The notes under the pieces were generated by a model that searched no databases, was not told the DNA's origin, and worked only from the letters and a program-made list of their open reading frames with translations. 42,500 bases of DNA from Chromatiales bacterium (GTDB taxonomy: Bacteria > Pseudomonadota > Gammaproteobacteria > CAMYNG01): contig JALTLF010000188.1 of assembly GCA_027005735.1 (NCBI GenBank), positions 1 through 42,500 on the forward strand, written 5' to 3'. Positions 1,972 to 20,942 of this stretch are shown piece by piece. The position numbers and the translations under genes were made by a program. Position 1 is the first letter of the stretch. Each line of letters opens with the position of its first letter.

Positions 1972-2607
1972 TCAGCGCAGCTCGATTTTACGCCGCACGC
2001 CGATGCCGTGGTGGGCCACCGTGCCCTGGCTGCGATCGACGATACGGATCGGCAGGCTGGGTTCGGGACAGACCTCGACACACAGGCCACAACCCACGCA
2101 GCCCTTCTGCACCACCGGCCGGTAGAAGTTGCCGAACTCGAAGTCGATGGCCGAGGAACCCAGGGGACAGATCCCCACGCAAGCACCGCACACACCGGCA
2201 TCCACCCACGGATAACAGGCGACCCGATCGATCTGCGCCGTCCCCATATCCACCTCGCGGATGGGTGTCTCGGTCAGGGCCTCCGTGGGGCAGACCTCCA
2301 TGCACAGGCCGCACAGGATACAGGCCCGGTCTTCCGGGTTGATGTAGGGCGTGTTGACGCCGCCGGCGCCATCGTTGCGATGAAATTTCACCGCCTTCAC
2401 GGGACAGATCTCGCCGCACAGGCCACAGCCGATGCACGCCCCCCGGAAGGCGTCGGGATCCGGCAGGGAGCCGGGCAGGGGCACGCGGCGATGGGGATCC
2501 GCCTTTACCTCCGGCGCCAGCAGGCGCGCCAGTCCGAAGGGCAGCGCGGAGAAACCCGCCACGCCGGCAAAGAAGGCCAGCTTCTGCATGAAGGTGCGCC
2601 GTTTCAT
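1972..2607 (-). CDS. NapG/NapF-like ferredoxin-type protein
   Basis: TAT-like N-terminus (MKRRTFMQKLAFFAG) and several 4Fe-4S motifs (CIGCGLCGEICPVKA, CILCGLCMEVCP, CGACVGICP, CVGCGLCVEVCP). Confidence 0.8.
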   Translation of the reverse strand: MKRRTFMQKLAFFAGVAGFSALPFGLARLLAPEVKADPHRRVPLPGSLPDPDAFRGACIGCGLCGEICPVKAVKFHRNDGAGGVNTPYINPEDRACILCGLCMEVCPTEALTETPIREVDMGTAQIDRVACYPWVDAGVCGACVGICPLGSSAIDFEFGNFYRPVVQKGCVGCGLCVEVCPEPSLPIRIVDRSQGTVAHHGIGVRRKIELR

Positions 2608-3614
2608 GCCGCCTCGCCTGGATCGCTGTGGGCATCCGCCTGCCTGTTTTCCTGCCGCCGGCGGTATTCATGGCCGAGATGCCCCGGCCCCTGGAAGGGC
2701 TGGTCCTTGAAAGCGACCCTGAAGGTAAGTGCATCGGTGGGGCACACGGCAATACAGGCGGTGCAGTTGTTGCATTCCTGGCCAAAGCCGTCACGCAGGG
2801 GATCGAGACCGAACTGGCAGACCACATTACACTTGGCGCAGTCGTTGCACTGGCCCACCTTGCGCTGGATACGCAGGAGGCGGAAGCGGCCGAGCAGGGA
2901 GTACAGCGCCCCGCCCGGACAGACGTAACGGCAAAAGCCACGCCGCGTGACCATCAGATCGAAGGCCAGGGTCAGTATGAAAAACACAATACCGGCACCG
3001 AAGCCCCCCACGGCGATGGCATAATAGATCTCGCGACCAATGATCGCCGGCGGATAGACGGCGGCAAAGACCATGGTACCGCTGATGGCCGCGATGATGG
3101 TTCCCGCGGCCAGCACCAGGTACTTGAGCCGGCGATCCAGCTTGCGCCGACTCACCGGCAAGCCGGCCTTGCGCAACCAGGCGGCGAGGTTGTCGTGCAA
3201 CTCGTAGATGAGCGTCGCCGGGCAGATCCAGCCGCAGTACACGCGTCCCAGCACGAGCGTCACGGCGATGGGAATGAGCGCCGTGAGCAGGAAGGGCCAG
3301 TAGATGGTCAGGCCGGCGGCGGACTGACCCACCACCGCCAGCGGATCGCTGAGCTTGAGGCCGAACAGGGTCCCGGACCAGGTGGTGCCCTTGAGCGCAT
3401 TCAGATCGGTCACCGGATCGCTGACGAAGGGTGCCGTCAGGCGCTCCATGGCATCATAGATGGCCTTTTCATCCGGCGCGAGCAGGTCGTAGGCATGTGC
3501 CGCTTCATAGGTCTGGTAGAGATGCAGAAAGGGCAACAGGATGAGCATCAGGAAGACGATGCTCAGTGAAACCCACCGCAGCTTGTTGATGTGGCGTTGC
3601 CAGGTACGGCGCAT
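2604..3614 (-). CDS. napH: NapH-like quinol-dehydrogenase membrane ferredoxin
   Basis: Multi-TM protein with GWICPATLIYEL and FCRYVCPGGALYSLLG plus two C-terminal 4Fe-4S motifs (CNDCAKCNVVC, CNNCTACIAVCPTDAL). Confidence 0.8.
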   Translation of the reverse strand: MRRTWQRHINKLRWVSLSIVFLMLILLPFLHLYQTYEAAHAYDLLAPDEKAIYDAMERLTAPFVSDPVTDLNALKGTTWSGTLFGLKLSDPLAVVGQSAAGLTIYWPFLLTALIPIAVTLVLGRVYCGWICPATLIYELHDNLAAWLRKAGLPVSRRKLDRRLKYLVLAAGTIIAAISGTMVFAAVYPPAIIGREIYYAIAVGGFGAGIVFFILTLAFDLMVTRRGFCRYVCPGGALYSLLGRFRLLRIQRKVGQCNDCAKCNVVCQFGLDPLRDGFGQECNNCTACIAVCPTDALTFRVAFKDQPFQGPGHLGHEYRRRQENRQADAHSDPGEAA

Positions 3615-4283: not shown

Positions 4284-6983
4284 TCAGACTTTCTCGATAC
4301 GCGCGGCCAGCTTCTTGAAGTCCACCTGACCGGATACCAGATCCCACACGCGGCTCGAGGTGCTGTTGACCAGCCAGCGGTTCTTCTTCGGATCCGCCGA
4401 GTCGGCCACCGACAGGTTCCATGGGCTGAACATGTAGCCACGCGGAACCACGTTGCGCGCCGGCTTGACCAGGCTGTTGGTGCCCACCTGCGCCCTGGCC
4501 TCGAAGGAACCGCGCCGTGTCACCAGGCGCACCTTGTCGCCGTCCTTTATACCGAGGTCTTTGGCGTCTTCCGGGTGGATCTCCACGTACATCTCCGGCA
4601 CCAGCCGCCGCGTGGTGGGACTGCGGTTGGACTTGGCGGTATGGAAGTGCTCGTAGACCACGCCCAGGCCGAGCCAGTAGGGGTAACTGTCCTTGGGCAC
4701 CTCGTTCCAGGGCTTGCCGCGATGCGCCTCGTCGGGCAGATCCGGCGTCAGACCCATGTCCCGCGCCTGCTTGAGCAGGGGAATATTGTCGATGGTATAG
4801 ACACCCTCGCGGTGACCGAATTCCATCAGCTTGCGGGTGATCTCTTCGCGCCGGGAATAATCCTGCTGAACAAACTTCATGTGCACCTTGCCGTCCCGGG
4901 TGCGGAAATAACCGTAGGGGCGGTTCTCCCACCGGCCTTCCTGCATCATGTACCGTCGCTTGGTACCGCCCTTTTTGGCGATCTCATAGGTCGGCGCAGG
5001 CCACTGGATACCCCGGAGATCACGCAGCTGCTGATAGAGTGGCTTGCCATCCAGTTTTTCCACCTCCAGCATGCCCGTGAGATCGGTATCCGTGCCCGCC
5101 GAGGCCTCGACCACGGCGCGGAAGATCTCCTCGGCATCGTAGAAACCGTCCTCCTTGCGCTTCCATGGGAAGATGCGCTCGGCATCTAGCCCCAGCAGCT
5201 TCGCAATGGCGCGTCCCTTGTCGATGACCATGTCGAGGTCCGGGCGGCAACCGGGAGGCGGCTCGGCAGCCTTCTCCACGCGGTTGATGCGGCGCTCGGA
5301 GCTGATATAGACGCCATCCACTTCTCCCCAGGTGGCTGCCGGGAAGATAACGTCGGCATAGAGGTTGTTCGGCGCATGGCGATAGATCTCCTGCACCACG
5401 TTGAAGGTCTTCATCAGGGCCGGCCGCACCAGATTATCCTGATCAGGCAGGTCGATGTGGGTGGCATAGACGAAGAAGAAGGCCTTGACATCGTCCTTCA
5501 AGGCCCGCTCCATCATGCCAATCGCCATGCCCGGATTCTTGGAGTTCATGGCCTTGACCAGGTTGGCTTCGGGCACGTTCCACTGCTTCGCCATCCACTT
5601 GCGATGCTTTGCGTTCTTCAGCGGCATGTTGAAGGGCAGGCGTCCGGTGAGGCCGCCGGTGAAACGCTCACCCATGGCATTTGGCTGGCCGGTCATGGAG
5701 AAGGGCCCGCAACCCGGCTTGGCGAGGTTGCCGGTGAGGGTCAGCAGGTTGATGATGGCAATGACGTTGTTCTGCCCATGGATGTGCTGGTTGTATCCGA
5801 TGCCCCACATGATGATGACGCCGCCATAACCCTTGCCCTCGTGCTTGCCCTTGCTGCGTGCCAGGCGCTTGCGCGTGGCGTCGGCAAACATGCCGGCCAC
5901 CCGGCGGATCAGCTCGGGCGAGACATCATGGTTGGGCCCGCCCATGCGGTCCTGCACCTGCTCGGGGCTATAGTCCCGGAGAACACCCTCGGTATATTCC
6001 TTCCAGCCGGTGGTGTGGGCCTTGAGGAACTTCCAGTCGATGACGTCGGGGTGCTCCTTCAGCAGGACATGCGCAATACTGTTGAGGAAGCTGATGTCGC
6101 CGTTGAGGATCGGGACGTGCACCGAGTTGTCGGGATTGATGTCGGCGTAGCCCTTGGCGGTTCCGGTATAGCGGGGATCCACCACCACGGTGGGGATGTT
6201 GGCCTTGCGCTTGTAATCGGCGGCACGCCAGAAGATGATGGGGTGCGACTCGCGGGCATTGTGTCCGAAGTGCATGATCATGTCGCACAACTCGATGTCT
6301 TCATAGGCCAGGGGCGGCGTGTCCGAACCCAGGGTGGCGAAGTAACCCGTCACCGCCGAGGTCATGCACATGCGGGCATTGGCCTCGATGGTGTTGGAGC
6401 TCAACACGCCCTTCATGAACAGGTTCTCGAGGTACTGGCCTTCCATGGTGAGCTGGCCGGACCCGTACAGGCCGATGGAATTGCCGCCGTACTTTTTCGC
6501 CAGGTGGGCGATCTTGTGTGCCACCATTTCCTCGGCCTCTTCGTAAGGCACGCGCACGAAGTGTTCCTCGTCGAAGGAACCCTTGGTCTTGCTGACATAT
6601 TCCAGGTCGCCGTGGCCGGGCTTCTTCCATTCTTCCCACACGTCCTTGCGTACGTAGGGATCGCCCTCCATGCGGTCGACATAGATGGGCTCCGCGGCGG
6701 TCAGGCCCTTGATGCACTGCAGGCCATAGTTGGTGGGATGATCGCGGTCCGGGCGCATGGAGACGATCTTGCCGTTCTCCACCTGGATGATGGTGCCGCA
6801 GCCCACGCCGCAATACGGGCACTGGGCAATGGCGGTGGTGCGCTTGCCATGCGCTGGCGCCTCCGCGGGCGCGGCTTCCAGTTCGGGATTGGCGCCGACC
6901 ATGAGACTGGTGCCTGCCGCCGATCCGGTGATGAAGCTGCTGGTTTTCAGAAAATCCCTTCGGTTCATCTTGATGCGTTTCAT
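4284..6983 (-). CDS. napA: Periplasmic NapA-like molybdopterin oxidoreductase catalytic subunit
   Basis: 899 aa; TAT signal (MNRRDFLKTSSFITGSAAG), N-terminal 4Fe-4S motif CPYCGVGCGT...QCIKG, putative Mo-ligand Cys in NARMCMTSAVTGY, C-terminal molybdopterin dinucleotide-binding domain (EIHPEDAKDLGIKDGDKVRLVTRRG). Substrate not determined. Confidence 0.8.
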   Translation of the reverse strand: MKRIKMNRRDFLKTSSFITGSAAGTSLMVGANPELEAAPAEAPAHGKRTTAIAQCPYCGVGCGTIIQVENGKIVSMRPDRDHPTNYGLQCIKGLTAAEPIYVDRMEGDPYVRKDVWEEWKKPGHGDLEYVSKTKGSFDEEHFVRVPYEEAEEMVAHKIAHLAKKYGGNSIGLYGSGQLTMEGQYLENLFMKGVLSSNTIEANARMCMTSAVTGYFATLGSDTPPLAYEDIELCDMIMHFGHNARESHPIIFWRAADYKRKANIPTVVVDPRYTGTAKGYADINPDNSVHVPILNGDISFLNSIAHVLLKEHPDVIDWKFLKAHTTGWKEYTEGVLRDYSPEQVQDRMGGPNHDVSPELIRRVAGMFADATRKRLARSKGKHEGKGYGGVIIMWGIGYNQHIHGQNNVIAIINLLTLTGNLAKPGCGPFSMTGQPNAMGERFTGGLTGRLPFNMPLKNAKHRKWMAKQWNVPEANLVKAMNSKNPGMAIGMMERALKDDVKAFFFVYATHIDLPDQDNLVRPALMKTFNVVQEIYRHAPNNLYADVIFPAATWGEVDGVYISSERRINRVEKAAEPPPGCRPDLDMVIDKGRAIAKLLGLDAERIFPWKRKEDGFYDAEEIFRAVVEASAGTDTDLTGMLEVEKLDGKPLYQQLRDLRGIQWPAPTYEIAKKGGTKRRYMMQEGRWENRPYGYFRTRDGKVHMKFVQQDYSRREEITRKLMEFGHREGVYTIDNIPLLKQARDMGLTPDLPDEAHRGKPWNEVPKDSYPYWLGLGVVYEHFHTAKSNRSPTTRRLVPEMYVEIHPEDAKDLGIKDGDKVRLVTRRGSFEARAQVGTNSLVKPARNVVPRGYMFSPWNLSVADSADPKKNRWLVNSTSSRVWDLVSGQVDFKKLAARIEKV

Positions 6984-7004: not shown

Positions 7005-7721
7005 TTAGTTCTTGCTCGGAACGGTACGCAGATAGGCAATGATGTCGTCGATTTCGCTCTCCGACAGGTTTGCCATGGCATCAGGACCGCTGAAACCCAG
7101 CATGCGCGTGTTGGAGCGTCCTTTCCTGATGGTCTCGCGAATGAAACCGTCGGTGGCCTTGGACAGGAAGCCCTCCTTGCCAATCGCGGTGCCCGTGCCC
7201 CCGGCCACATAGCCATCACCGTTCTCGCCGTGGCAGGTGGAACAGATCTGGTCGAACCAGAACTTGCCCAGACGGGGGTCGCCGTGGGATTCGGGCTCGG
7301 CGTCCACCTCGGCGGATCGATCCGGCAGCGTGGCATGGGAGCGCAGGAAGGCAACGATGGCCTCGATGTTCTTGCGGCCGAGGTGGGCGAAGGGCGGCAT
7401 GCCCGTGCCGGGCCGCCCGTCACGGATGGTCGCCAGCAGGAAACGGTCACTGGAGATGGACAGCAGCTCCGGGTTGGTCAGCGAGGGCGCAAAGCCGGGC
7501 TTGCCGATGCCGTCCGCCTGGTGGCAGAAAACGCAGTTCTGGTTGTAGAGGTCCTTGCCCTGCGCCGCAAGGGCCGGGTCGACCCTGGGGGGCGGCCCGG
7601 CGGGAACCGCGGCGGGCGCGGCCGCCTCTTTTTTGGGGGGTGCTTCGGATTCCTGCTGACAGGCACTGAGTATCAGTGCAAGGCCGGCAAGTAGTAACAG
7701 GGTAAACGCTGTTCTGGCCAC
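7005..7721 (-). CDS. Diheme c-type cytochrome lipoprotein
   Basis: Two CXXCH motifs (CVFCH, CSTCH), lipobox-like LALILSAC, two cytochrome c domains. Confidence 0.85.
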   Translation of the reverse strand: MARTAFTLLLLAGLALILSACQQESEAPPKKEAAAPAAVPAGPPPRVDPALAAQGKDLYNQNCVFCHQADGIGKPGFAPSLTNPELLSISSDRFLLATIRDGRPGTGMPPFAHLGRKNIEAIVAFLRSHATLPDRSAEVDAEPESHGDPRLGKFWFDQICSTCHGENGDGYVAGGTGTAIGKEGFLSKATDGFIRETIRKGRSNTRMLGFSGPDAMANLSESEIDDIIAYLRTVPSKN

Positions 7722-8686: not shown

Positions 8687-9604
8687 ATGAGTAGTGTGCC
8701 TGTTGACAACGTTCTGGATACCTCCGCCGAGGGATCTTCGCGCCGCCCCCGACTACCCGTAGTTTCCGCAATACTGGGCAGCCGAGTGGCATGGATGACG
8801 ATGCTCACGGTATTCCTCATCGTCTGGGGCTGGCTCAACCGTGACAACAGTTACATAACAGCCGAGGAAGGCACCGGCTACTGGCTGGGGATCCTTGGCG
8901 GTTCGGCCATGTTGTTGCTACTGCTCTATCCCTTGCGCAAGAAGGCGCGTTTCATGCGGAACTGGGGGCCCGTGGGTTACTGGTTTGGCGCCCACATGTT
9001 TCTCGGGGTCGCCGGTCCGCTGATGATCCTCTACCACGCCAACTTCTCCACCGGTTCACTCAACAGCAATATTGCCCTGTTCAGCATGCTGCTGGTTGCC
9101 GGCAGCGGTGTGATCGGGCGCTTTCTCTATGGCCGCATCCACATGGGTATGTCAGGGCACAAGGCCACCATGGCGCAGTTGCGTGAAGAGATGCAGATAT
9201 CGCGGGGCAGGCTCAATGGCCGCTTTACCCTGTCGAAGAAAATCCTCAAAAAAATCCGCAAGTATGAAAAGCGCATGTTGCGCCCTCACATCCCTGTTCT
9301 GGGACTGTTCAGCCTGGGCTACCACGGCTTCTGCTCACTGAGCACCTACCTGAGTATTACCCACCAGTTGCACAGGAGCCTGCGTCAACAGGCACGAAAG
9401 CATGACTGGGACCGCCGCATGCGCAAGGCGCTGTTACGCGAATCCAGCCAGGCCATGCGTGAATACATCCGTGCCGTACGCCGCGCGGGGGAATTCCAGA
9501 TCTATGAACGCTTCTTCGCCCTGTGGAATCTCCTGCACCTGCCGCTTTTCCTGCTGCTAATGATTACGGGAACTGTTCATGTCATTGCCGTGCACATGTA
9601 TTGA
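8687..9604 (+). CDS. Multi-TM membrane protein, possible b-heme membrane electron carrier
   Basis: TM helices with histidines (GAHMFLG, LYHANFS, LLHLPLFLLLMITGTVHVIAVHMY); first gene of the cytochrome cluster. Confidence 0.55.
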   Translation: MSSVPVDNVLDTSAEGSSRRPRLPVVSAILGSRVAWMTMLTVFLIVWGWLNRDNSYITAEEGTGYWLGILGGSAMLLLLLYPLRKKARFMRNWGPVGYWFGAHMFLGVAGPLMILYHANFSTGSLNSNIALFSMLLVAGSGVIGRFLYGRIHMGMSGHKATMAQLREEMQISRGRLNGRFTLSKKILKKIRKYEKRMLRPHIPVLGLFSLGYHGFCSLSTYLSITHQLHRSLRQQARKHDWDRRMRKALLRESSQAMREYIRAVRRAGEFQIYERFFALWNLLHLPLFLLLMITGTVHVIAVHMY

Positions 9605-9624: not shown

Positions 9625-11202
9625 ATGCATGCCTGGAAACGAAATCTTCTGCTTGGGGGAATGCTGCTCATGTTATGTAGTACTGCCAGCGCCGATCCCT
9701 TCGAATCCCTGCTCATGCCGGGCCCCCTGGTCGAAGGACATGCGGATCTCGAGGACGACTGTGACAACTGCCACCGCTCATTCAGCGATGCCACAGAGGA
9801 AACGCGCCTGTGCCTGGAGTGTCACGATGACATCCGTGCCGACGTACTCAAGCGGCGCGGCTTTCACGGCCGCTCCCGCCAGGTGAGAAAGCAGGCCTGC
9901 CGCAGTTGCCACACCGAACACCAGGGACGTGATGCGGACATAATCAAGTTCAATCCCGCCACCTTCGATCACCACCTGACCGACTTCCCCCTGCGTGGTC
10001 GGCATGCCCGCGAGGCCTGCGGGAACTGCCACAAGAAAGGCAAGAAGTACCGCGCCGCACCGGCCAGCTGCCTTGCCTGCCACAAGGAGGTCAACCCCCA
10101 TCGCAGCGAGCGCCTCGGCAAGCGCGCCAGGAAATGCCAGGTCTGTCACAGGGAGGATGGATGGAGTCGAATCGACTTCGATCACTCGGTAACGGATTTC
10201 CGCCTCACCGGCAAGCACAGGAAAACCGACTGCGCGAGCTGTCACCCCAATGACCGCTATGCAAAAACGCCTCAAGACTGCTACTCCTGCCATCGCCTCA
10301 ACGATGCGCATGCCGGGGGTAACGGCAAGAAGTGCGAAAAATGTCATTCCACACGCGCCTGGGACGACCTCGACTTCAACCACGACACGGAGACAGACTT
10401 CCCGTTGCGCGACGGCCACGACGGGCTCGCCTGTCAACGCTGCCACAAGAAGGATCCCTACAAGGTGAAGCTGAAGACGGCCTGCATTAGCTGCCACCGC
10501 GCGGACGACGTGCACAAGGGCCGTAACGGCAGAAAATGCCAGGAATGCCATACCGCCAAGGGATGGAAAGACTCGCGTTTCGACCATGGCAAGGAAACCG
10601 ACTTCCCGCTTCGCGGCAAACACAAGGGTCTAAAGTGCATCACCTGTCACAAGCGCAACCCGAAAGAGCATGAAACGGACATGGCCTGCATCAGTTGCCA
10701 TCGCGCCGATGATGTGCACAAGGGACAGCAGGGCAAGCAGTGCCAGCGCTGCCACAACGAGGCGGGCTGGCAGGTACGCGTGCGTTTCGATCACGATCTC
10801 ACGCGTTTCCCGCTACTGGGTCTGCACGCGGTAACCCCTTGTGAGGAATGTCACCTTGGGGGCACGTATCGTGATGCGGAGATGCGGTGCAATAGCTGCC
10901 ATCAAGAGGACGATGAGCACCGTGGCCGTCTCGGGACCGATTGCGAGCGCTGCCACACACCGAACTCCTGGGAACTTTGGAAGTTTAATCACAATACACA
11001 GTCGCGATTCAGGCTACGGCACAAGCATGCAAAACAGCACTGCTATGCCTGCCACCGCCGCAAGGTAGAGAAGGTGGACTCGGTGCCAAGACCGTGTGAA
11101 TCGTGCCATGCCGCGGACGACGTACACAATGGTCAGTTTGGCAGCGATTGTGCTCGCTGCCATACGACACGTTCTTTCAAGGATGTAAATCTACGACGTT
11201 GA
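9625..11202 (+). CDS. Periplasmic multiheme c-type cytochrome with 21 CXXCH motifs
   Basis: Manual count of 21 CXXCH in 525 aa. Signal peptide MHAWKRNLLLGGMLLMLCSTASA without a proper lipobox. Repeating FDH..TDFPLRG.H....C..CH...C.SCH..DD.HKG..G..C..CH...GW module. Confidence 0.92.
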   Translation: MHAWKRNLLLGGMLLMLCSTASADPFESLLMPGPLVEGHADLEDDCDNCHRSFSDATEETRLCLECHDDIRADVLKRRGFHGRSRQVRKQACRSCHTEHQGRDADIIKFNPATFDHHLTDFPLRGRHAREACGNCHKKGKKYRAAPASCLACHKEVNPHRSERLGKRARKCQVCHREDGWSRIDFDHSVTDFRLTGKHRKTDCASCHPNDRYAKTPQDCYSCHRLNDAHAGGNGKKCEKCHSTRAWDDLDFNHDTETDFPLRDGHDGLACQRCHKKDPYKVKLKTACISCHRADDVHKGRNGRKCQECHTAKGWKDSRFDHGKETDFPLRGKHKGLKCITCHKRNPKEHETDMACISCHRADDVHKGQQGKQCQRCHNEAGWQVRVRFDHDLTRFPLLGLHAVTPCEECHLGGTYRDAEMRCNSCHQEDDEHRGRLGTDCERCHTPNSWELWKFNHNTQSRFRLRHKHAKQHCYACHRRKVEKVDSVPRPCESCHAADDVHNGQFGSDCARCHTTRSFKDVNLRR

Positions 11203-11240: not shown

Positions 11241-12566
11241 ATGGACAAGAATCACAATACAAGGCCAGGCTGGCTGCTTCTGCTGATGGCTTCCCTGCTG
11301 CTGGCATGCAGCTCGGCTACGGCAGCCACGGTACCGCAGGAAGGCTTCGACCACGACACCACGGGGTTCATCCTCTCCGGCGAACATACCCGCCTGTCCT
11401 GTGAGTCCTGCCACCAGCGTGGCATTTTCAAGGGCGTTCCCAAGACCTGCCAGGGCTGCCATGCCCAGGGTGGGCCCATGCCCGCCTCGGCCAAACCCTC
11501 AAACCATATCCCCAGCGGGGCTGCCTGTGATGATTGCCACCTGGAGACCAGCTGGGCTACGGCTCGTGTCGATCATGTCTCGGTTACCGGCACCTGCGAG
11601 TCCTGCCACAATGGGCGCATGGCGAGCGGCAAGCCATCTGGCCACATCCAGAGCAACAATGTCTGTGACGATTGCCATACCACCCGCAACTGGGCCGGCG
11701 CGCGCTTCGACCATAGTTCTGTCTCGGGCAACTGCATGCGCTGTCACAATGGTATTACCGCCACCGGCAAGCCGAACAACCATGTGCAAACAGGCAGTGA
11801 CTGTGCCGTCTGCCATCGCACCACTGGCTGGCTGCCGGCGGGCTTCGATCACGCCGGCATCACCAGTGGTTGCGCCAACTGCCACAATGGCGCTACCGCC
11901 ACCGGGAAGCCGGCCAACCATATCCAGAGTAACAATGCCTGCGAAAACTGTCATCGCACCACCGCCTGGGTGCCAGCCACCGGGTTTGATCACAGCGGCA
12001 TTACCACAGGCTGTTACACCTGCCACAACGGCGCCACCGCCACCGGCAAACCGCCGACGCATATTGCCAGCAGCAATGTGTGCGAGGATTGCCACCGTAC
12101 GGCGGGCTGGATTCCGGCCAGCTTCGACCACAGTAATGCGGGCAACAATTGCAACAGTTGCCACAATGGTTCCACGGCGACCGGCAAGACGCCAAATCAC
12201 TTTGTAACCACCCTGCAGTGCAGCGCGTGCCATACCACCACGGCATGGCTACCGGTACGCTACACCCACACCTCTATGAACTATCCGGGTGATCACCGCA
12301 GTGTCCGTAACTGTCTGGGCTGCCACACGACCAATTCGGAAAACATCCCTTGGCCGTTCGCGGCATACAAGCCTTTCTGCGCGGGCTGCCATGCCAACAG
12401 CTACGATGCCGGCGAACACAAAAAGGTTGATAATCCGCGGATCCTCTATACCGTGGGCGAACTCAAGGACTGCTCGGGCGCCTGTCACACTTACACCGAC
12501 AGCACGCTGACCAATATCCTCAAGCGGCGCTCCGGTCAACACCGGGTCACGGATGGAGGCTGGTAG
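11241..12566 (+). CDS. Lipoprotein multiheme c-type cytochrome, 15 CXXCH plus one CX3CH
   Basis: Manual count of 15 CXXCH plus CSGACH near the C-terminus. Lipobox LLLAC. About five tandem 46-aa diheme repeats (FDH.SIT.GC..CHNG.TATGKP.NHI.S.N.CE.CHRT..W.PA). Confidence 0.92.
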   Translation: MDKNHNTRPGWLLLLMASLLLACSSATAATVPQEGFDHDTTGFILSGEHTRLSCESCHQRGIFKGVPKTCQGCHAQGGPMPASAKPSNHIPSGAACDDCHLETSWATARVDHVSVTGTCESCHNGRMASGKPSGHIQSNNVCDDCHTTRNWAGARFDHSSVSGNCMRCHNGITATGKPNNHVQTGSDCAVCHRTTGWLPAGFDHAGITSGCANCHNGATATGKPANHIQSNNACENCHRTTAWVPATGFDHSGITTGCYTCHNGATATGKPPTHIASSNVCEDCHRTAGWIPASFDHSNAGNNCNSCHNGSTATGKTPNHFVTTLQCSACHTTTAWLPVRYTHTSMNYPGDHRSVRNCLGCHTTNSENIPWPFAAYKPFCAGCHANSYDAGEHKKVDNPRILYTVGELKDCSGACHTYTDSTLTNILKRRSGQHRVTDGGW

Positions 12567-12595: not shown

Positions 12596-12669
12596 CAGCT
12601 ACCTTCCCCCGAGGTGTATGCCTTTCGTGATGCAGGCCGATGCTGTTCCGTCATATTGAATTAAAGACG

Positions 12670-13212
12670 ATGTCGGCAAACCGCAAGCAGGGTATCCTGC
12701 CCTTCCTGCTTTGCCTGTTCACGGGAGTGATGCCCTTTCTGCTTCCCTCGCCCACTCCTGCCGGTCCGGTAACAGGCATCGTCTTCGATACGGTGAGCTG
12801 GGAACGCAATGTAGATCATTACCGCATCCGTATAGGCTTCAACTATCCCGTGCAATACATCCTGCATTACCCCCCCAGCCCACGCGATGAGGTCGTGGTG
12901 CAGATACGCCTGCTGGAAGCCAACGCCCTGGAGGGACGCCTGCCGGTGATAGAAGAAAGCGCGGCACTGGATGCCATGATGAAACGTCTTTTTGAAGATC
13001 TCCGTTTCGAGGGCAGTGTCCCGGAGACACCCCTTGTCATCCTGCGCTTTACCCACCCGCAGCATTTCCGCATCGAGCAGGGTGGCGACTGGCGCAGTAT
13101 CGTGCTCTACCTGTTCGATGAACCACGCTGGAGCGATGTGGCGCCACCGGAAGCCGAGATCATTGACGAGAACGGCGGTCATACCCAGGGCGGGGATGAG
13201 GTTCGCCCATGA
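12670..13212 (+). CDS. Exported AMIN-domain-like protein
   Basis: Signal peptide and beta-rich domain (GIVFDTVSWERNVDHYRIRIGFNYPVQYILHYP...FRIEQGGDWRSIVLYLFDEP). Overlaps the next gene by ATGA. Resembles the N-terminal domain of the next protein. Confidence 0.6.
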   Translation: MSANRKQGILPFLLCLFTGVMPFLLPSPTPAGPVTGIVFDTVSWERNVDHYRIRIGFNYPVQYILHYPPSPRDEVVVQIRLLEANALEGRLPVIEESAALDAMMKRLFEDLRFEGSVPETPLVILRFTHPQHFRIEQGGDWRSIVLYLFDEPRWSDVAPPEAEIIDENGGHTQGGDEVRP

Positions 13213-15752
13213 TAAGACCATATCGAGTTCATGTGTCACACTGGCTGTGGCATGGGCTGGTTCATGTCGCCATAGTGGCTACACTGATTTCGTGGGCCCA
13301 CGGCGTGCATGCCGCCAACCGATTCATGGAAAAGCTGGATATCTCCACGTCGAACGGCGATGCCGTGCTGACGTTGCATTTATCCGAGCCAGTCACCTAC
13401 CTGCGGCATTTCCCGGCCAGGCAGGGCAAGCTGGTTGAAGTCACGGTGCGACTGGCCACGCCTGGTGCAACGCGTGAAGTTGAAAGCGAGTCCCTGGGTG
13501 GCCCCGCGAGCGCTACCATCCCCCTGCGCGAGGTTGAAGCCACATCCATCGATCCCAATACACTAAACATTACCTTCCGCTTTACCCGCAATGCACACTT
13601 CGCCGTTTCCCGCGGTGGAGACGGAAATACAATCATCATCCGCCTTTTCAACCCTCGACGCAGTGGCATTACCGGCCCCGATACCGTCATCCGCCCAAGC
13701 TGGGGAGCGATAGTCAACACCTATACGATCAACCTGCAATCCTCGGTAACACCCTTCAAGGAACGTCCAAGTGCGCGCCGCGACATCCTCGATGTCTTCA
13801 AGCTCTACAAGATGCGGGTACGCATCAAGGGTACCGTCTGGTATCGCTACCGCCTCGGTTTCTTCGCCACCCGTGCCCAGGCCGAACGGGTCCGCAAGCT
13901 TCTCCTCAAGGACTACCCCGACGCCTGGATCGACCTGCTGCACCCCAGCGAACACGCCCTGGCGGAACGCTGGTTCTCGGTTCACCGGAAGCCGCCGAAG
14001 ATCGCCCTGGAGCCAGTACCACAGGCAGCCCCCAGGCCGCCCACACCGGCAAGCCCAGCGCCCAGGGCGCCGCCCAAACGCCCCGCGAAACCGGCAAAGC
14101 CCGCCACGCCATCTGCGCCACCACGTCCCCTGCCGAGTACCAGGTCCGGGCGCCTCATGGAACTGGCGCGCCAGGCCATGATCGACGGCAACTATCGACG
14201 TGCCACCAAACTCTACACCAAGGTACTGCAGCGCCCGGAAAAGGCCTTCCATCAGGATGCACTGGAATTCCTCGGCCTGGCACGCGAACGCAATGGGCAG
14301 ATCGCCCATGCCAAGGCGGAGTATCGCAACTACCTGAAACTGTACCCCGACGGCGAAGGCGCCATTCGTGTACGCCAGCGCCTCGATGGGATTATCACGG
14401 CGCGCAAGGATCCCCGCACGCCGCTGGCCAGGCCCAGTGAACGGGCCGAGGAGGCCCGCTGGGATATGTTCGCCAGCCTGGCCCAATTCTACCGCTACCA
14501 GACCACGTCGACTGATGCGGCGGGCAGCCAGGCCGTCGACAATTCCGTCGACTCCGACATCCTTTTCTCTGCCCGGCGGCGTACCGAGACCTGGGATATC
14601 CGCACCCTCTTCGCCGGCAGCCACCGCTATGATTTCATTGACGATCGTGATCCGGGCGATGGACGCGTCACTTCCCTGTATGCGGACTTCCGCAACCGTG
14701 TGGAGGACTATTCCATCCGCATCGGGCGCCAGACCCACAGCGCCAACGGTGTGCTCGGACGTTTCGACGGCATCCTCGGCAGTTATCGCCTCAACAGCCA
14801 GGTCAAGCTCAACGTCGTGGCTGGCTACCCGGTGGAGTTGACCTCATCGGATGGGGTCAACACCGACCGCCAGTTTTTCGGCGCCAGCACCGATCTTTCC
14901 GGCCATATCGACAACGTCGATCTCAATGTATTCTTCATCCACCAGACCATCGACGGCATGGTGGATCGCCAGGCCATTGGTGCCGAAGCCCGCTACAATG
15001 ACCCCAACGGGCGTAACGCCTTCGCGCTCATCGACTACGATACGCACTTTGGCCAGATCAATACCCTGATGTTCGTTGGCACCATGATCTTCGAGGGTAA
15101 TCGCCTGCTCAATCTGGTGGTGGACTACCGTAACAGCCCCGTACTCACCACCTACAATGCCCTGCAGGGCCAGACGGTTGCCACTATTGCCGAGTTACGC
15201 CAGACCCTGAGCGAGGCCGAGATAGAACAGCTGGCACGGGATCGCACCGCGCGCTTCAAGTCCATCACCCTTTCCGGTTCCCTGCCCCTGACCCCGAAGT
15301 TCCAGTTCAACGGTAGTGTTACTGTTTCCAGTCTTTCGGGGACGCCGGCCTCCGGTGGTGTCGCCGCCACCAGCCCCAGCGGCACCGAATACGCCCTGTT
15401 TGCACAATTGCTGGGTAACAACTGGCTGTTCGAAAAAGATGTCAGTTCCGTGGGGCTACGCTGGGCCGATGCCGCCACCGCCACGCGCACTACGCTGTCC
15501 TTCAGTACACGCTTCCCGCTGAACAAGGAATGGCGTATCAATCCCCGCTTCCAGCTGGAGAAAGTCAGCGGTAGCGATGGCTCGAGCTCGACCCTGATCC
15601 GCCCCTCCTTGCGCGCCGATTTCCGCTTCCGACGCAACATACGTTTCGAATTCGAGGGAGGTGTGGATCTGACGCAGCGTGATATTGCCGGTGGCAGTGA
15701 CGACGAAACCAGCTATTTCATCCGTGCCGGCTATGTCTACGATTTCCTGTAG
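13209..15752 (+). CDS. AMIN-like / SPOR-like / TPR / outer-membrane beta-barrel fusion protein
   Basis: 847 aa. N-terminal AMIN-like domain, SPOR-like YRYRLGFFATRAQAERVRKLLLKDYPDAWID, Pro/Ala-rich linker, TPR-like helices, then about 430 C-terminal residues of alternating amphipathic strands ending YFIRAGYVYDFL. Confidence 0.75.
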   Translation: MIRPYRVHVSHWLWHGLVHVAIVATLISWAHGVHAANRFMEKLDISTSNGDAVLTLHLSEPVTYLRHFPARQGKLVEVTVRLATPGATREVESESLGGPASATIPLREVEATSIDPNTLNITFRFTRNAHFAVSRGGDGNTIIIRLFNPRRSGITGPDTVIRPSWGAIVNTYTINLQSSVTPFKERPSARRDILDVFKLYKMRVRIKGTVWYRYRLGFFATRAQAERVRKLLLKDYPDAWIDLLHPSEHALAERWFSVHRKPPKIALEPVPQAAPRPPTPASPAPRAPPKRPAKPAKPATPSAPPRPLPSTRSGRLMELARQAMIDGNYRRATKLYTKVLQRPEKAFHQDALEFLGLARERNGQIAHAKAEYRNYLKLYPDGEGAIRVRQRLDGIITARKDPRTPLARPSERAEEARWDMFASLAQFYRYQTTSTDAAGSQAVDNSVDSDILFSARRRTETWDIRTLFAGSHRYDFIDDRDPGDGRVTSLYADFRNRVEDYSIRIGRQTHSANGVLGRFDGILGSYRLNSQVKLNVVAGYPVELTSSDGVNTDRQFFGASTDLSGHIDNVDLNVFFIHQTIDGMVDRQAIGAEARYNDPNGRNAFALIDYDTHFGQINTLMFVGTMIFEGNRLLNLVVDYRNSPVLTTYNALQGQTVATIAELRQTLSEAEIEQLARDRTARFKSITLSGSLPLTPKFQFNGSVTVSSLSGTPASGGVAATSPSGTEYALFAQLLGNNWLFEKDVSSVGLRWADAATATRTTLSFSTRFPLNKEWRINPRFQLEKVSGSDGSSSTLIRPSLRADFRFRRNIRFEFEGGVDLTQRDIAGGSDDETSYFIRAGYVYDFL

Positions 15753-15859: not shown

Positions 15860-17869
15860 TCAGAAGATGCCGAAAAAACCACCCTCGTCGGCCTTCTCGA
15901 TGAGTTCCACGATCTTCCCATGACCTGCACTCTTTGCCACGCTGAGCGCACTTTGCCGATCACCGTTACGAATACGCACGTTGGCGCCCTTGTTCAATAA
16001 CAATTCCACGGTGGCAGCGTGACCGCTGCGCGCAGCGAGGATCAGGGCCGTATTGCCGAATCGATCACGCGCATCAATGTCGGCGCCGTGTCCAAGCAGT
16101 ACGGCCACGGTGGAGGTATGGCCCGCATCGGCAGCCAGTAGCAGCGGCGTGTTGCCGGATCTGTCACCGCCCTCCACTGCCGCACCATGCTTCAGAAGGA
16201 GATCAACCACCTTGTCGAAACCCAGCGCCGCAGCGCGGCCCAGCAATGTATATCCGGCACTGTCACGCCCATGGAGATCCGCACCCTGCGTGATCAGATA
16301 GGAGGCCGCCCGGGGATGACCCTGGGTGACGGCGAACCACAGGGCACCTGCGCCGTCGCGGTTGCTGTAGTCGATGGGAATATGGCGCGGCGTCAACGAG
16401 CGCACCACTTCAAGGTGACCTTCGCGGGCCGCCCACAGCAGGGCATTCATGCCATCCTTCTGTCTACGACCAGGCTTCGCCCCGGCGGCCAACAGGCGAC
16501 GCAGGCACGCGATATGGCCATGACGGGCCGCCAGCATGACAGCATCCATGCCGTCCTTGCGCTGAAGCCCGTGCCGGGCGCCCTTCTGGAGGAGTTGCGT
16601 GACGATCTTCTCGTGGCCGCCGCGCGCCGCCCACATGAGGGCGGTCATTCCCTCACGATTGGCGATATTGACCGCCGCACCCCGTTTTAACAGGGCGGCG
16701 ACGATTTTCTCATGGCCCTTCATGGCGGCACGCATGAGGGCCGTATGGCCGTCGGGATCGCGGGCATCGATCCTGGCGCCACGCTGCAACAAGGGCCCCA
16801 CAGCCGCTGTCTGGCCACGCCATGCGGCCACCATCAACGGCGTCCAGCCCGCATAAGCCGCATCGCGGGCAATGGCCTCCGCGCCCGCCGAGGCCGTGGC
16901 CACATCGACACCGTCGGTAAAGGGTTCAGGCTCGGGTGGCCTGCGCGCCCCGGCCGCAAGCAGGGCACGCGCGACCTTCGTGTGCCTGCGGCCCTCGGCC
17001 AGCTGGTAGGCCGTTCGCCCCTCGCGATCAGTCGCATCGAGTGCCACCTTGTGACGGATCAACGCCTTCACGGCATCCAGTTTGCCGCTGCGTGCTGCCC
17101 ACATCAGTGCGGTATAGCCCAGCTTGTCCTTGAGATTTTTTTTCGCGCCACGCGCCAGCAGCAAGCGTACTACGGCAGCACGTCCTTCCCCAGCTGCCAG
17201 CATGAGGGCCGTCTCTCCGGCACGGTTACGGTGATTGAGCTTTGCGCCCCGAGCGCGCAGGTGATCCACCACCTTCACGTGCCCCCCTTCCGCCGCCAGC
17301 ATGAGGGGGGAGTTCCCATCTTCGTCGAGGGTATCGACGGGGATACCTCGCGCCAGCAGGGCCTTGACTTCGGGCAGGTCACCACGCCGCGCGGCGGTCA
17401 ACAGGGCCTCGCGCGGATGCTCGGTGCCGCGCGGCGTAACGCCCTGCTGCTTCAGTTTTGCCAGGCGCCTTGCGGCGCGTCGATGTCCCTGTGCCGCGGC
17501 CTTGCGAAACCAGGCCATGGCACGTGCGGGATCGCGTCCCACGCCCACGCCGTTCAGGTACATCATGCCAAGGCTGTACTGGGCGCGATCCAGGCCGCGC
17601 TTTGCCGCCTCGCCGAACCAGTAGAGGGCCTTTTTATAGTCCTGTGGCGTCCCCTGCCCGTTGCGGTAGAGCACGGCAAGCTGATACTGGGCCTCGGCCC
17701 TGCCCTTCTTCGCCAGCGGTTGCAGCAGGCGCAGGGCACGCGGATAGTCGCGCAGGCGCAGGGCCTGCTCGGCGTCCTCGAGCTTTCCCGCGTATACCGG
17801 CGCGGCAACGACCAGCATCAGGATGAACAGGATCCAGCGCTGGTGGCAAGCTGGAGAGGAAGTATACAT
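15860..17869 (-). CDS. Exported Sel1-repeat plus ankyrin-repeat protein
   Basis: Signal peptide (ILFILMLVVAAPVYA), Sel1 repeats (AEAQYQLAVLYRNGQGTPQDYKKALYWFGEAAKRG), then many ANK repeats (GHTALMRAAMKGHEKIVAALLKRGA). Confidence 0.88.
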   Translation of the reverse strand: MYTSSPACHQRWILFILMLVVAAPVYAGKLEDAEQALRLRDYPRALRLLQPLAKKGRAEAQYQLAVLYRNGQGTPQDYKKALYWFGEAAKRGLDRAQYSLGMMYLNGVGVGRDPARAMAWFRKAAAQGHRRAARRLAKLKQQGVTPRGTEHPREALLTAARRGDLPEVKALLARGIPVDTLDEDGNSPLMLAAEGGHVKVVDHLRARGAKLNHRNRAGETALMLAAGEGRAAVVRLLLARGAKKNLKDKLGYTALMWAARSGKLDAVKALIRHKVALDATDREGRTAYQLAEGRRHTKVARALLAAGARRPPEPEPFTDGVDVATASAGAEAIARDAAYAGWTPLMVAAWRGQTAAVGPLLQRGARIDARDPDGHTALMRAAMKGHEKIVAALLKRGAAVNIANREGMTALMWAARGGHEKIVTQLLQKGARHGLQRKDGMDAVMLAARHGHIACLRRLLAAGAKPGRRQKDGMNALLWAAREGHLEVVRSLTPRHIPIDYSNRDGAGALWFAVTQGHPRAASYLITQGADLHGRDSAGYTLLGRAAALGFDKVVDLLLKHGAAVEGGDRSGNTPLLLAADAGHTSTVAVLLGHGADIDARDRFGNTALILAARSGHAATVELLLNKGANVRIRNGDRQSALSVAKSAGHGKIVELIEKADEGGFFGIF

Positions 17870-17870
17870 T

Positions 17871-19178
17871 TCAGGCAGTTCCGTGCTTGGTTTCCACTTC
17901 GATACCGATCTTCTTCAGGAAGGGCGTGGGCAGGATGCCGCCGGCACAGACGATCATGGCGTCATTGGGAATGGTGATCAACTTGCCCTCCACGTCGATG
18001 TCCACCTCCCTTTCACGGATCTCCTTGACGTTGGAATTCATCAATACCTGCAGGCGACCGGCCTCTGCCGCCGCCTCAACCTTGTCGCGGTTCTTCGCCT
18101 TGGCGCGGCTAAACGAGGCACTGCGGTAGGAAATGGTCACCGTGGTACCGGGTTCCTCCGCGATGCTGGTGGCCGCCTCAAGTGCGCTGTCGCCACCCCC
18201 CACCACCAGGACGTGCTGGTTGCGGTACTGTTCCGGGTCGATGAGGTTGTAGACCACCTTGGGGACATCCTCGCCCGGCACGCCCAGTTTACGCGGCGTG
18301 CCGCGTCGGCCGATGGCCAGCAGGACGCAACCGGCGGTGTATTCGCCCTTCGTCGTGACGACGCGGAAGAAGCCGTCTTCGCGCTGGATATCGTCCATTT
18401 TCTCACCGTAGTGGATTTTAACGCCGGTGCGCTTCTCCACTTCCTGCCAGAACTTCAACAGAGTTTCCTTGCGTGTCTCGCGAAACTTGACCTTGCCAAT
18501 AATGGGCAGTTTTACCGGCGCGGTCATGACCAGCTTGCCACGCGGAAACTTGAACACCGTACCGCCCAGTGAGTCCTGCTCGACGGTGCGGTAACGCAGT
18601 TTCTTCTCGTGCGCCCCGAGGGAAGCGGAAAATCCGGCCGGACCCGCCCCAATGATGATGATGTCGTACTCGCCCTGGTGCTTCGTGCCGGCGAGTTTTT
18701 TCGCTATCGCCTCCATGGCCTGGCGGCCCTGCTCGACGGCATTGCGGATCAAGCCCATGCCGCCCAGTTCACCGGCAATGAACAGGCCTGGGATATTGGT
18801 CTCGAAATTCGTGTCCACGTGCGGGATATCCACGCCGCGCTTCGCGGTACCGAAGACCAGTGTAATGGCCTTGAAGGGACAGGCGCGGGCACAGGCGCCA
18901 TGACCGATACATTTGGTCGGCTCGATGAGCTGTGCCTTGCCGTTCACCAGGCCAAGGATGGTGCCCTCGGGACAGGCGGTCACGCACGCGGCGCAACCCA
19001 CGCACTGACTGTCATCGATACTCGGGTGCAGGGAGGCCGGTTCCGTCAGGCCCGCTTCCCTGGCTTCCTCGAGTACCGCGACATTGCGCTTTTCCTTGCG
19101 CTTGACGTAGATGTAGTAGCCGCCGATGAGGAGCAGCGGCATGAGCATATACAAGCTTGTAACTAGACCCAGTTTCAT
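17871..19178 (-). CDS. Membrane-anchored ferredoxin-domain FAD/NAD(P)-dependent oxidoreductase
   Basis: N-terminal TM (LGLVTSLYMLMPLLLIGGYYIYV), ferredoxin motifs CVGCAACVTACP and CIGHGACARACP, dinucleotide motifs (IIIIGAGPAGFSASLGA; VLVVGGGDSALEAA), GIEVETKHG C-terminus. Confidence 0.85.
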   Translation of the reverse strand: MKLGLVTSLYMLMPLLLIGGYYIYVKRKEKRNVAVLEEAREAGLTEPASLHPSIDDSQCVGCAACVTACPEGTILGLVNGKAQLIEPTKCIGHGACARACPFKAITLVFGTAKRGVDIPHVDTNFETNIPGLFIAGELGGMGLIRNAVEQGRQAMEAIAKKLAGTKHQGEYDIIIIGAGPAGFSASLGAHEKKLRYRTVEQDSLGGTVFKFPRGKLVMTAPVKLPIIGKVKFRETRKETLLKFWQEVEKRTGVKIHYGEKMDDIQREDGFFRVVTTKGEYTAGCVLLAIGRRGTPRKLGVPGEDVPKVVYNLIDPEQYRNQHVLVVGGGDSALEAATSIAEEPGTTVTISYRSASFSRAKAKNRDKVEAAAEAGRLQVLMNSNVKEIREREVDIDVEGKLITIPNDAMIVCAGGILPTPFLKKIGIEVETKHGTA

Positions 19179-19448: not shown

Positions 19449-20942
19449 GTGAGCGAGCACTTCACCACCCTGTTTACCCTGCTGCAGTATCTCACTTACC
19501 TGTTCGTCTTTATCGTCGGCCTGGGCGTGCTGTGGATCCTCGTCCTCTACGTGATGGACGTGACCCAGAAGCGCAACGCCATCCTGCGCAACTACCCGGT
19601 GGTGGGCCACTTCCGCTACCTGTTTCAGACCCTGGGCAAGTTCTTTCGCCAGTATTTCTTCGCCATGGATCGCGAGGAACTGCCCTTCAACCGCGCCGAG
19701 CGCAACTGGGTCTACCGTGCCTCGCAGAACCAACCCAACACCGCGGCCTTCGGTTCCACGCGCGACCTGCGCCCGCCGGGAACCATCCTGTTCGTCAACT
19801 GCCCCTGGCCCACCCTGGACAAGGACGCCACGCCCACCGCGCCGCGTATCATCGGCCCCGACTGTCCCCAGCCCTATACCGCCACCTCCCTGTTCAACAT
19901 CTCCGCCATGAGCTACGGCGCCCTGTCGAAGCCCGCGGTACGCGCCCTCTCGGCGGGTGCGAAGCTGGCGGGCTGCTGGCTCAATACCGGCGAAGGGGGA
20001 CTCTCGCCCTGGCACCTGGAGGGCGGCGGCGACCTCGTCTTCCAGATCGGTACCGCCAAGTACGGCGTGCGCAATGCCGAGGGTGGCCTCGACGACGAAA
20101 AGTTGCGCGCCGTGGCGGCCCACCCCCAGGTACGCATGTTCGAACTCAAGCTCTCGCAGGGCGCCAAGCCCGGCAAGGGCGGCATCCTGCCCGCCGGCAA
20201 GGTCACCCCGGAGGTGGCCGGTATTCGGGGGATCCCGGTGCATACCGCTTCCATCAGCCCCAACCGCCATCCGGAGATCAGCAGTGAGGACGATCTGCTG
20301 GACATGCTCAACCACATCCGCGAGGTCACCGGCAAGCCGGTGGGCTTCAAGGCCGTCCTCGGCGCATGGGGCTGGCTGGACAGCCTGTTCGAGGCCATCA
20401 ACCGCCGTGGCGCCGACAGCGCGCCGGACTTCATTACCATCGACTCTGCCGACGGCGGTTCGGGCGCGGCCCCGGCGAGCCTGATGGACTACATGGGTCT
20501 GCCCCTGCGCGAGAGCCTGCCCCTGGTCATCAACAAGCTGGGGGAATACGGCCTGCGCGCGCGCATCCGGGTGATTGCCTCGGGGCGGCTGGTGACCCCC
20601 GGTGACGTGGCCTGGGCCCTGTGCGTGGGAGCGGATTTCATCAATTCCGCCAGGGGATTTATGCTGGCGCTGGGCTGCATCCAGGCCATGCAGTGCAACC
20701 GCAACACCTGTCCCACGGGGATCACCACCCATAATCCCCGCCTGCAGAAGGGCCTCAACCCCGCCGACAAGGCCGTGCGCGTGAAACAGTACGTGGAGAA
20801 CATGCGCCACTCGGTGGGCGTCATCGCCCATTCCTGCGGCGTCCACGAACCGCGCCAGTTGCGCCGTTTCCACGCCCGCATGGTGACCGAAAACGGCCAG
20901 TCGAAGCCCCTCGACGAGATCTACGGCCCGGACGTGGAATAA
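19449..20942 (+). CDS. FMN-binding glutamate synthase family protein (GltB central-domain-like)
   Basis: ISAMSYGALSKPAVRALSAGAKLAGCWLNTGEGGLSPWH; DSADGGSGAAP; C-x5-C-x4-C 3Fe-4S motif CIQAMQCNRNTC-PTGITTHNP. Confidence 0.88.
   Translation: MSEHFTTLFTLLQYLTYLFVFIVGLGVLWILVLYVMDVTQKRNAILRNYPVVGHFRYLFQTLGKFFRQYFFAMDREELPFNRAERNWVYRASQNQPNTAAFGSTRDLRPPGTILFVNCPWPTLDKDATPTAPRIIGPDCPQPYTATSLFNISAMSYGALSKPAVRALSAGAKLAGCWLNTGEGGLSPWHLEGGGDLVFQIGTAKYGVRNAEGGLDDEKLRAVAAHPQVRMFELKLSQGAKPGKGGILPAGKVTPEVAGIRGIPVHTASISPNRHPEISSEDDLLDMLNHIREVTGKPVGFKAVLGAWGWLDSLFEAINRRGADSAPDFITIDSADGGSGAAPASLMDYMGLPLRESLPLVINKLGEYGLRARIRVIASGRLVTPGDVAWALCVGADFINSARGFMLALGCIQAMQCNRNTCPTGITTHNPRLQKGLNPADKAVRVKQYVENMRHSVGVIAHSCGVHEPRQLRRFHARMVTENGQSKPLDEIYGPDVE

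Follow-up and report, generated by a model that had tools for sequence, protein, structure and literature searches.

AMIN- and SPOR-like modules on the porin of a PCC3 porin-cytochrome locus

Among the genes of the window, as we call the whole 42,500-nucleotide stretch of a Chromatiales contig analysed here, an open reading frame on the forward strand (13209-15752; ATG start, 847 amino acids) lies directly downstream of two multiheme cytochrome genes. A sequence-only reading had proposed that its product fuses AMIN, SPOR and TPR modules to an outer-membrane barrel, that such a fusion could tie an electron conduit to the cell wall, or dock a long cytochrome across the periplasm, and that no described family with this order was known to it. 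To which system does this protein belong, and what would wall-binding modules do on a porin? Judging by domain content, predicted fold, conservation, neighbourhood, hallmark motifs and co-occurrence, all observed here, we consider it very likely that a PCC3 porin-cytochrome conduit has this protein as its outer-membrane porin.

Domain architecture of the porin

A query with the single sequence returned no related loci, and an alignment query returned 80. Together with the homologues from 19 sampled genomes, these gave 83 non-redundant porins, of which 81 were aligned. In an AlphaFold2 model of the full porin made with the 81-row alignment (mean pLDDT 88.8), a beta domain (mature 5-112) comes first and a SPOR-like domain (mature 137-223) second; disordered residues rich in Pro and Ala then lead to a helical repeat, which a short linker joins to the barrel. 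We number the mature protein from aa 36, after a putative signal peptide (aa 1-35; 13209-13313) that we judged by eye to be cut after AHA. The proposed order of AMIN, SPOR, TPR and barrel is confirmed, its AMIN part through the predicted fold only, and it is not a product of chance, because homologues with the same order occur in many genomes. Pfam by itself supports this order unevenly, with SPOR above its cut-off, TPR below threshold and AMIN absent.

The N-terminal domain (mature 1-116; 13314-13661) has no match to the Pfam AMIN family (PF11741). AMIN searches with the small paralogue described below and its relatives, and a genome-wide family search, likewise gave no match in the window. 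When the N-terminal fragment of the porin was modelled alone (pLDDT 88.2), the best matches in the PDB for mature 1-116 were PilQ B2 (Z 8.7, rmsd 3.0 over 99 residues, and a second match with Z 8.6) and the AMIN domain of AmiC (Z 8.2, rmsd 3.8 over 106 residues). The predicted structure of the domain is an AMIN fold. A paralogue of this N-terminus is encoded immediately upstream as a 190-aa secreted AMIN-like protein (12640-13212, forward strand), the gene for which overlaps the porin start by ATGA; some relatives also have a separate AMIN-like gene ahead of the porin.

The SPOR domain (mature 136-223; 13719-13982) was found both by sequence and by fold. PF05036 matches aa 203-241 with an E-value of 1.8e-5 and 25.4 bits against a curated cut-off of 21, and the family profile built from the 81 relatives matches the DamX SPOR structure (E 1.1e-5). 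In a fold search with the model of the N-terminal fragment, mature 136-210 matched the SPOR domains of RlpA (Z 8.5, rmsd 2.3, 73 residues) and DamX (Z 6.1). Residues Q270, R302, R309 and R311 of RlpA contact denuded glycan, and W283 and R285 of FtsN correspond to L307 and R309 of RlpA (PMC6895207); Gln270 has been described as important in RlpA. We placed these positions by structural alignment of mature 136-210 to RlpA 266-342 together with the sequence pattern, which puts N175, W211, R213 and R215 (mature 140, 176, 178 and 180) at the positions of Q270, L307, R309 and R311. The window porin retains R309 and R311 and has a Trp at the FtsN W283 position; Q270 is replaced by Asn, and R302 is not retained. 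Across the 52 SPOR-bearing porins, Arg occupies the R309 position in 42 and the R311 position in 40, the Q270 position is Asn or Gln in 45 (mostly Asn), and the FtsN W283 position is Trp in 36. To judge from this mixed pattern, the domain likely binds glycan, with the Asn at the Q270 position counting against it, and a cell-wall anchor as proposed would fit the contact residues that are kept.

A Pro/Ala-rich, flexible linker (13983-14138), through most of which (mature 224-275) the pLDDT is low, leads into the TPR block (mature 277-362; 14142-14399), which is the best conserved soluble part of the porin in the family alignment. In the window porin itself, the Pfam match is weak and sub-threshold (aa 319-382), but TPR models match most of a 20-protein porin alignment (TPR_16 in 14 of the 20), the profile of the 81 relatives matches TPR proteins in the PDB, and the model forms a helical repeat, all of which bears out the TPR assignment. 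The barrel-like C-terminus is likewise upheld: mature 383-811 (14460-15746) is predicted by AlphaFold2 as a barrel of 22 antiparallel strands, with pLDDT mostly above 90. Fold searches with the barrel returned generic barrels only (TonB receptors, ushers, OprD and AlgE), so they teach nothing about function. Between strands 13 and 14 there is a conserved helical insert, SPxLTTxNALxGQ...QLAxDRT (aa 644-680, mature 609-645; about 15138-15248), which strand parity places on the outer side and which is a candidate docking site or lumen plug.

All 81 aligned porins have the TPR block and the barrel. Counted as aligned stretches, not as domain matches, SPOR is present in 52 and the AMIN-like domain in 63, with both in 38 and neither in 4; two of these last four (L040 and L076) are cut by contig ends. 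At least two porins (L060 and L077) carry a second SPOR copy, and no plasmid copy was found. By alignment, AMIN and SPOR are optional attachments on a fixed TPR-barrel core. Since 25 of the 81 porins lack a SPOR stretch and keep AMIN, and four lack both, wall binding through SPOR is not essential to the family.

A PCC3 gene cluster

The PCC3 cluster defined by He et al. in 2017 comprises a porin, an extracellular cytochrome (median 34 hemes), a periplasmic cytochrome (median 21 hemes) and an inner-membrane protein of about 300 amino acids that is marked by SGxxG and two WX3HX13H motifs and whose likeness to ferric reductases those authors noted (PMC5566968). Each of these parts has a counterpart in the window, on the same strand as the porin. 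The inner-membrane protein (8687-9604), a multi-TM, cytochrome-b/ferric-reductase-like protein, carries WFGAH...H at aa 104, WNLLH...H at aa 285 and SGVIG at aa 145. It is followed by a periplasmic cytochrome with 21 CxxCH motifs (9625-11202; the frame opens at 9523, and 9625 is the likely start) and by a second long cytochrome with 15 (11241-12566), the variable partner that takes the place of the PCC3 'extracellular' cytochrome. An LLAC lipobox had made this 15-heme protein a candidate lipoprotein, an assignment we dropped because the closest relative has no lipobox.

The order of inner-membrane protein, 21-heme cytochrome, variable cytochrome, AMIN-like gene where present, and porin recurs in loci from Gamma- and Alphaproteobacteria. 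In the relatives' inner-membrane proteins, SGxxG is found in 41 of 41 and both WX3HX13H motifs in 40 of 41. Of the 48 scored copies of the first cytochrome, 41 have 21 hemes, and the second ranges from 4 to 73, the lowest counts being cut by contig ends. Single reading frames with 69 and 73 CxxCH motifs lie beside PCC3 porins (L035, 10660-15822; L043, 7929-13427), close to the published maximum of 85. We could check 65 loci that had at least 1 kb of readable upstream DNA, and a multiheme cytochrome lies within 2.5 kb of the porin in 63. Both exceptions are explained: L059 belongs to a MAG chromosome joined by 100-N gaps about every 3 kb, and L077 has a 32-heme frame just past the 2.5-kb limit. 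The link between porin and cytochromes is thus very strong, and, with a cytochrome neighbour in all checkable loci, the concern of the sequence-only reading that the same architecture might be common in genomes without multiheme cytochromes falls away.

Other genes surround this core. A secreted Sel1 and ankyrin-repeat protein on the reverse strand (15860-17869) is a frequent partner, present in 9 of the 12 loci with enough flank on both sides. Upstream of the operon, also on the reverse strand, lie a NapH-like ferredoxin protein (2604-3614), a diheme cytochrome c (7005-7721) and a divergent, twin-arginine-type molybdopterin oxidoreductase (4284-6983) that is intermediate between NapA and formate dehydrogenase and scores under the cut-off for either. 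In genome G001, too, this oxidoreductase and the diheme cytochrome adjoin the PCC3 operon.

On its motifs, heme numbers and gene order, rather than by alignment to a published PCC3 sequence, we take the locus to be PCC3. It shares with the published clusters, including those of the Gallionellaceae survey, a porin, the variable large cytochrome, the 21-heme cytochrome and the motif-bearing inner-membrane protein of about 300 amino acids (PMC5566968, PMC10734462). The host range also agrees, covering Gamma- and Alphaproteobacteria that include tubeworm symbionts; our relatives include symbionts of Lamellibrachia and Escarpia, near the tubeworm hosts listed in the PCC3 paper. The claim of an undescribed family therefore does not hold for the gene cluster, which is PCC3 (PMC5566968), and stands for the AMIN, SPOR and TPR modules of the porin, which the PCC3 main texts do not mention. 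Those main texts also lack the extra AMIN-like gene, the ankyrin protein and the Fe-S/FAD reductase described below, all present here. Specifically, TPR and ankyrin go unmentioned in the main texts of PMC5566968 and PMC10734462, and TPR in that of PMC12442390; sporulation-domain naming, FAD and thioredoxin reductase go unmentioned in the main text of PMC5566968. Our literature search, which covered open-access papers, found none linking a SPOR domain with extracellular electron transfer. PCC3 porins have been counted at up to 42 strands with PRED-TMBB (PMC5566968), compared with the 22 of our model, and that count may include the soluble part of the porin.

The best-known conduits, MtrAB, MtoAB and PioAB, likewise place a barrel and a multiheme cytochrome across the outer membrane. 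MtrB-type porins have 26 strands and no AMIN, SPOR or TPR module. We found no sequence relation between them and the window porin: the MtrB/PioB family has no Pfam match at E up to 10 in the window porin or among 20 relatives, and the cytochrome partner has 21 hemes, unlike the MtrA-type decaheme. PilQ-type secretins, RlpA, DamX and FtsN share the fold of the two N-terminal modules, but those modules there accompany a secretin, an enzyme or a division anchor and not a 22-strand barrel beside cytochromes.

An Fe-S/FAD reductase that tracks the porin

Beyond the ankyrin protein, on the reverse strand (17871-19178), lies a membrane-anchored reductase. It has a hydrophobic segment near its N-terminus, carries two [4Fe-4S] motifs and contains a TrxR-like FAD/NAD(P) domain that is closest to YpdA and thioredoxin/ferredoxin-NADP reductases. 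Porin homologues occur in 19 of 95 sampled genomes, three more with weak fragment matches having been left out. The reductase, at E <= 1e-60, is found in exactly these 19 (G000, 1, 4, 6, 13, 22, 27, 38, 39, 40, 52, 60, 70, 71, 80, 84, 86, 90 and 92) and is absent from the remaining 76, which makes it a strict genomic partner. Three genomes that have neither porin nor reductase belong to the same family as the window's genome. In 18 of the 19 genomes with porin and reductase, the inner-membrane protein also gives a strong match; the exception, G004, is 72% complete, and its porin contig ends inside the cluster. All 12 loci that extend far enough to either side have the reductase. These observations suggest that it lets electrons enter or leave the cytochrome-b-like protein on the NAD(P)H side, much as in a split NADPH oxidase.

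In G039 (C1:2217466-2219028), the match to the reductase falls into two parts, separated by one in-frame TGA and some additional sequence. Adjoining the reductase in the window is a membrane-anchored protein (19449-20942, forward strand) that has a domain like GltB, the large subunit of glutamate synthase. L033 has at the equivalent position (279-1772) a protein that is equally long and resembles it at the N-terminus, and the GltB-like protein might belong to the electron-entry side.

What the porin and its modules may do

In the mechanism that we propose for this PCC3 porin, the cytochrome-b-like protein of the inner membrane would exchange electrons with the 21-heme periplasmic cytochrome, and this in turn with the long variable cytochrome that leads across the outer membrane. 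Electrons could flow in one direction or the other, for export or import. The 22-strand barrel would be a sheath and docking point at the outer membrane; since it has fewer strands than the 26 of MtrB, insertion of a cytochrome into it is not certain. SPOR, and probably AMIN, would bind peptidoglycan, chiefly where its glycan is denuded, and a partner, most likely the periplasmic cytochrome, would dock on the TPR block. The heme wire would thereby be held upright and fixed to the wall, with AMIN and SPOR acting as a wall anchor or localiser of a wire that spans the periplasm. On the cytoplasmic side, the reductase would feed electrons to the inner-membrane protein or take them from it. A more specific proposal makes PCC3 a wall-anchored, NAD(P)H-linked wire, comparable to a split NADPH oxidase connected to the exterior: the reductase would pass electrons directly to the cytochrome-b-like protein and thence to a 21-heme wire that the AMIN/SPOR arm holds to peptidoglycan, by-passing the quinone pool. 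This proposal is tentative, and we regard it as somewhat doubtful.

The strongest competitor concerns the modules. They could be an assembly or localisation tag that recruits the conduit to the septum or pole, both rich in denuded glycan, instead of a static tether or cytochrome dock. AMIN is known as a septal and polar targeting module from AmiC and PilQ. SPOR is known as another (PMC6895207), its contact residues are kept here, and AMIN and SPOR are swapped and lost across the family as the TPR-barrel core stays. Nothing that we observed speaks directly against this reading, and we give it a substantial minority share of our belief.

Two further readings deny the conduit itself. TPR beside a barrel is the plan of BcsC, PgaA and Slam, in which a periplasmic TPR precedes the barrel, and AlgE-type and usher barrels are among the fold matches; the second cytochrome must, moreover, somehow reach the surface. 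The porin might on these grounds be an exporter that secretes the long cytochrome or other cargo and not a conduit sheath. However, it differs from those exporters in strand number (22, against 14 in Slam and 16 in BcsC and PgaA), partners and gene context. The locus holds none of their export partners, with no glycan synthase or lipoprotein system adjoining the porin. In every checkable locus the porin lies among redox proteins, and its structural similarity to exporters is that of barrels in general. We think an exporter unlikely, and marginally less likely still is a cluster unrelated to extracellular electron transfer, with cytochromes confined to the periplasm, for example for electron storage, and the porin a solute pore. 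PCC3 is known from genomics and some expression data: both clusters of Sideroxydans ES-1 are down-regulated on Fe(II) (PMC8788666), and those of Sideroxydans sp. CL21 are expressed above the mean (PMC12442390). The lack of induction by Fe(II) in ES-1 speaks for a periplasmic role and against the conduit; what speaks against a periplasmic role is that the porin strictly co-occurs with very long heme wires and with an inner-membrane protein resembling cytochrome b.

The finding is a PCC3 member with undescribed domain content, not a new kind of system. Two points seem undescribed: the putative wall-binding AMIN and SPOR modules of the porin, with SPOR contact residues that appear largely kept, and the Fe-S/FAD NAD(P)H-type reductase that tracks the porin across genomes. 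PCC3 occurs widely among uncultured bacteria of marine and groundwater habitats and in tubeworm symbionts. A likely wall-binding arm on its porin suggests, in physical terms, how a heme wire of such length could be held in place, and the reductase that always accompanies the cluster points directly towards the source or sink of the electrons, which the PCC3 papers left open.
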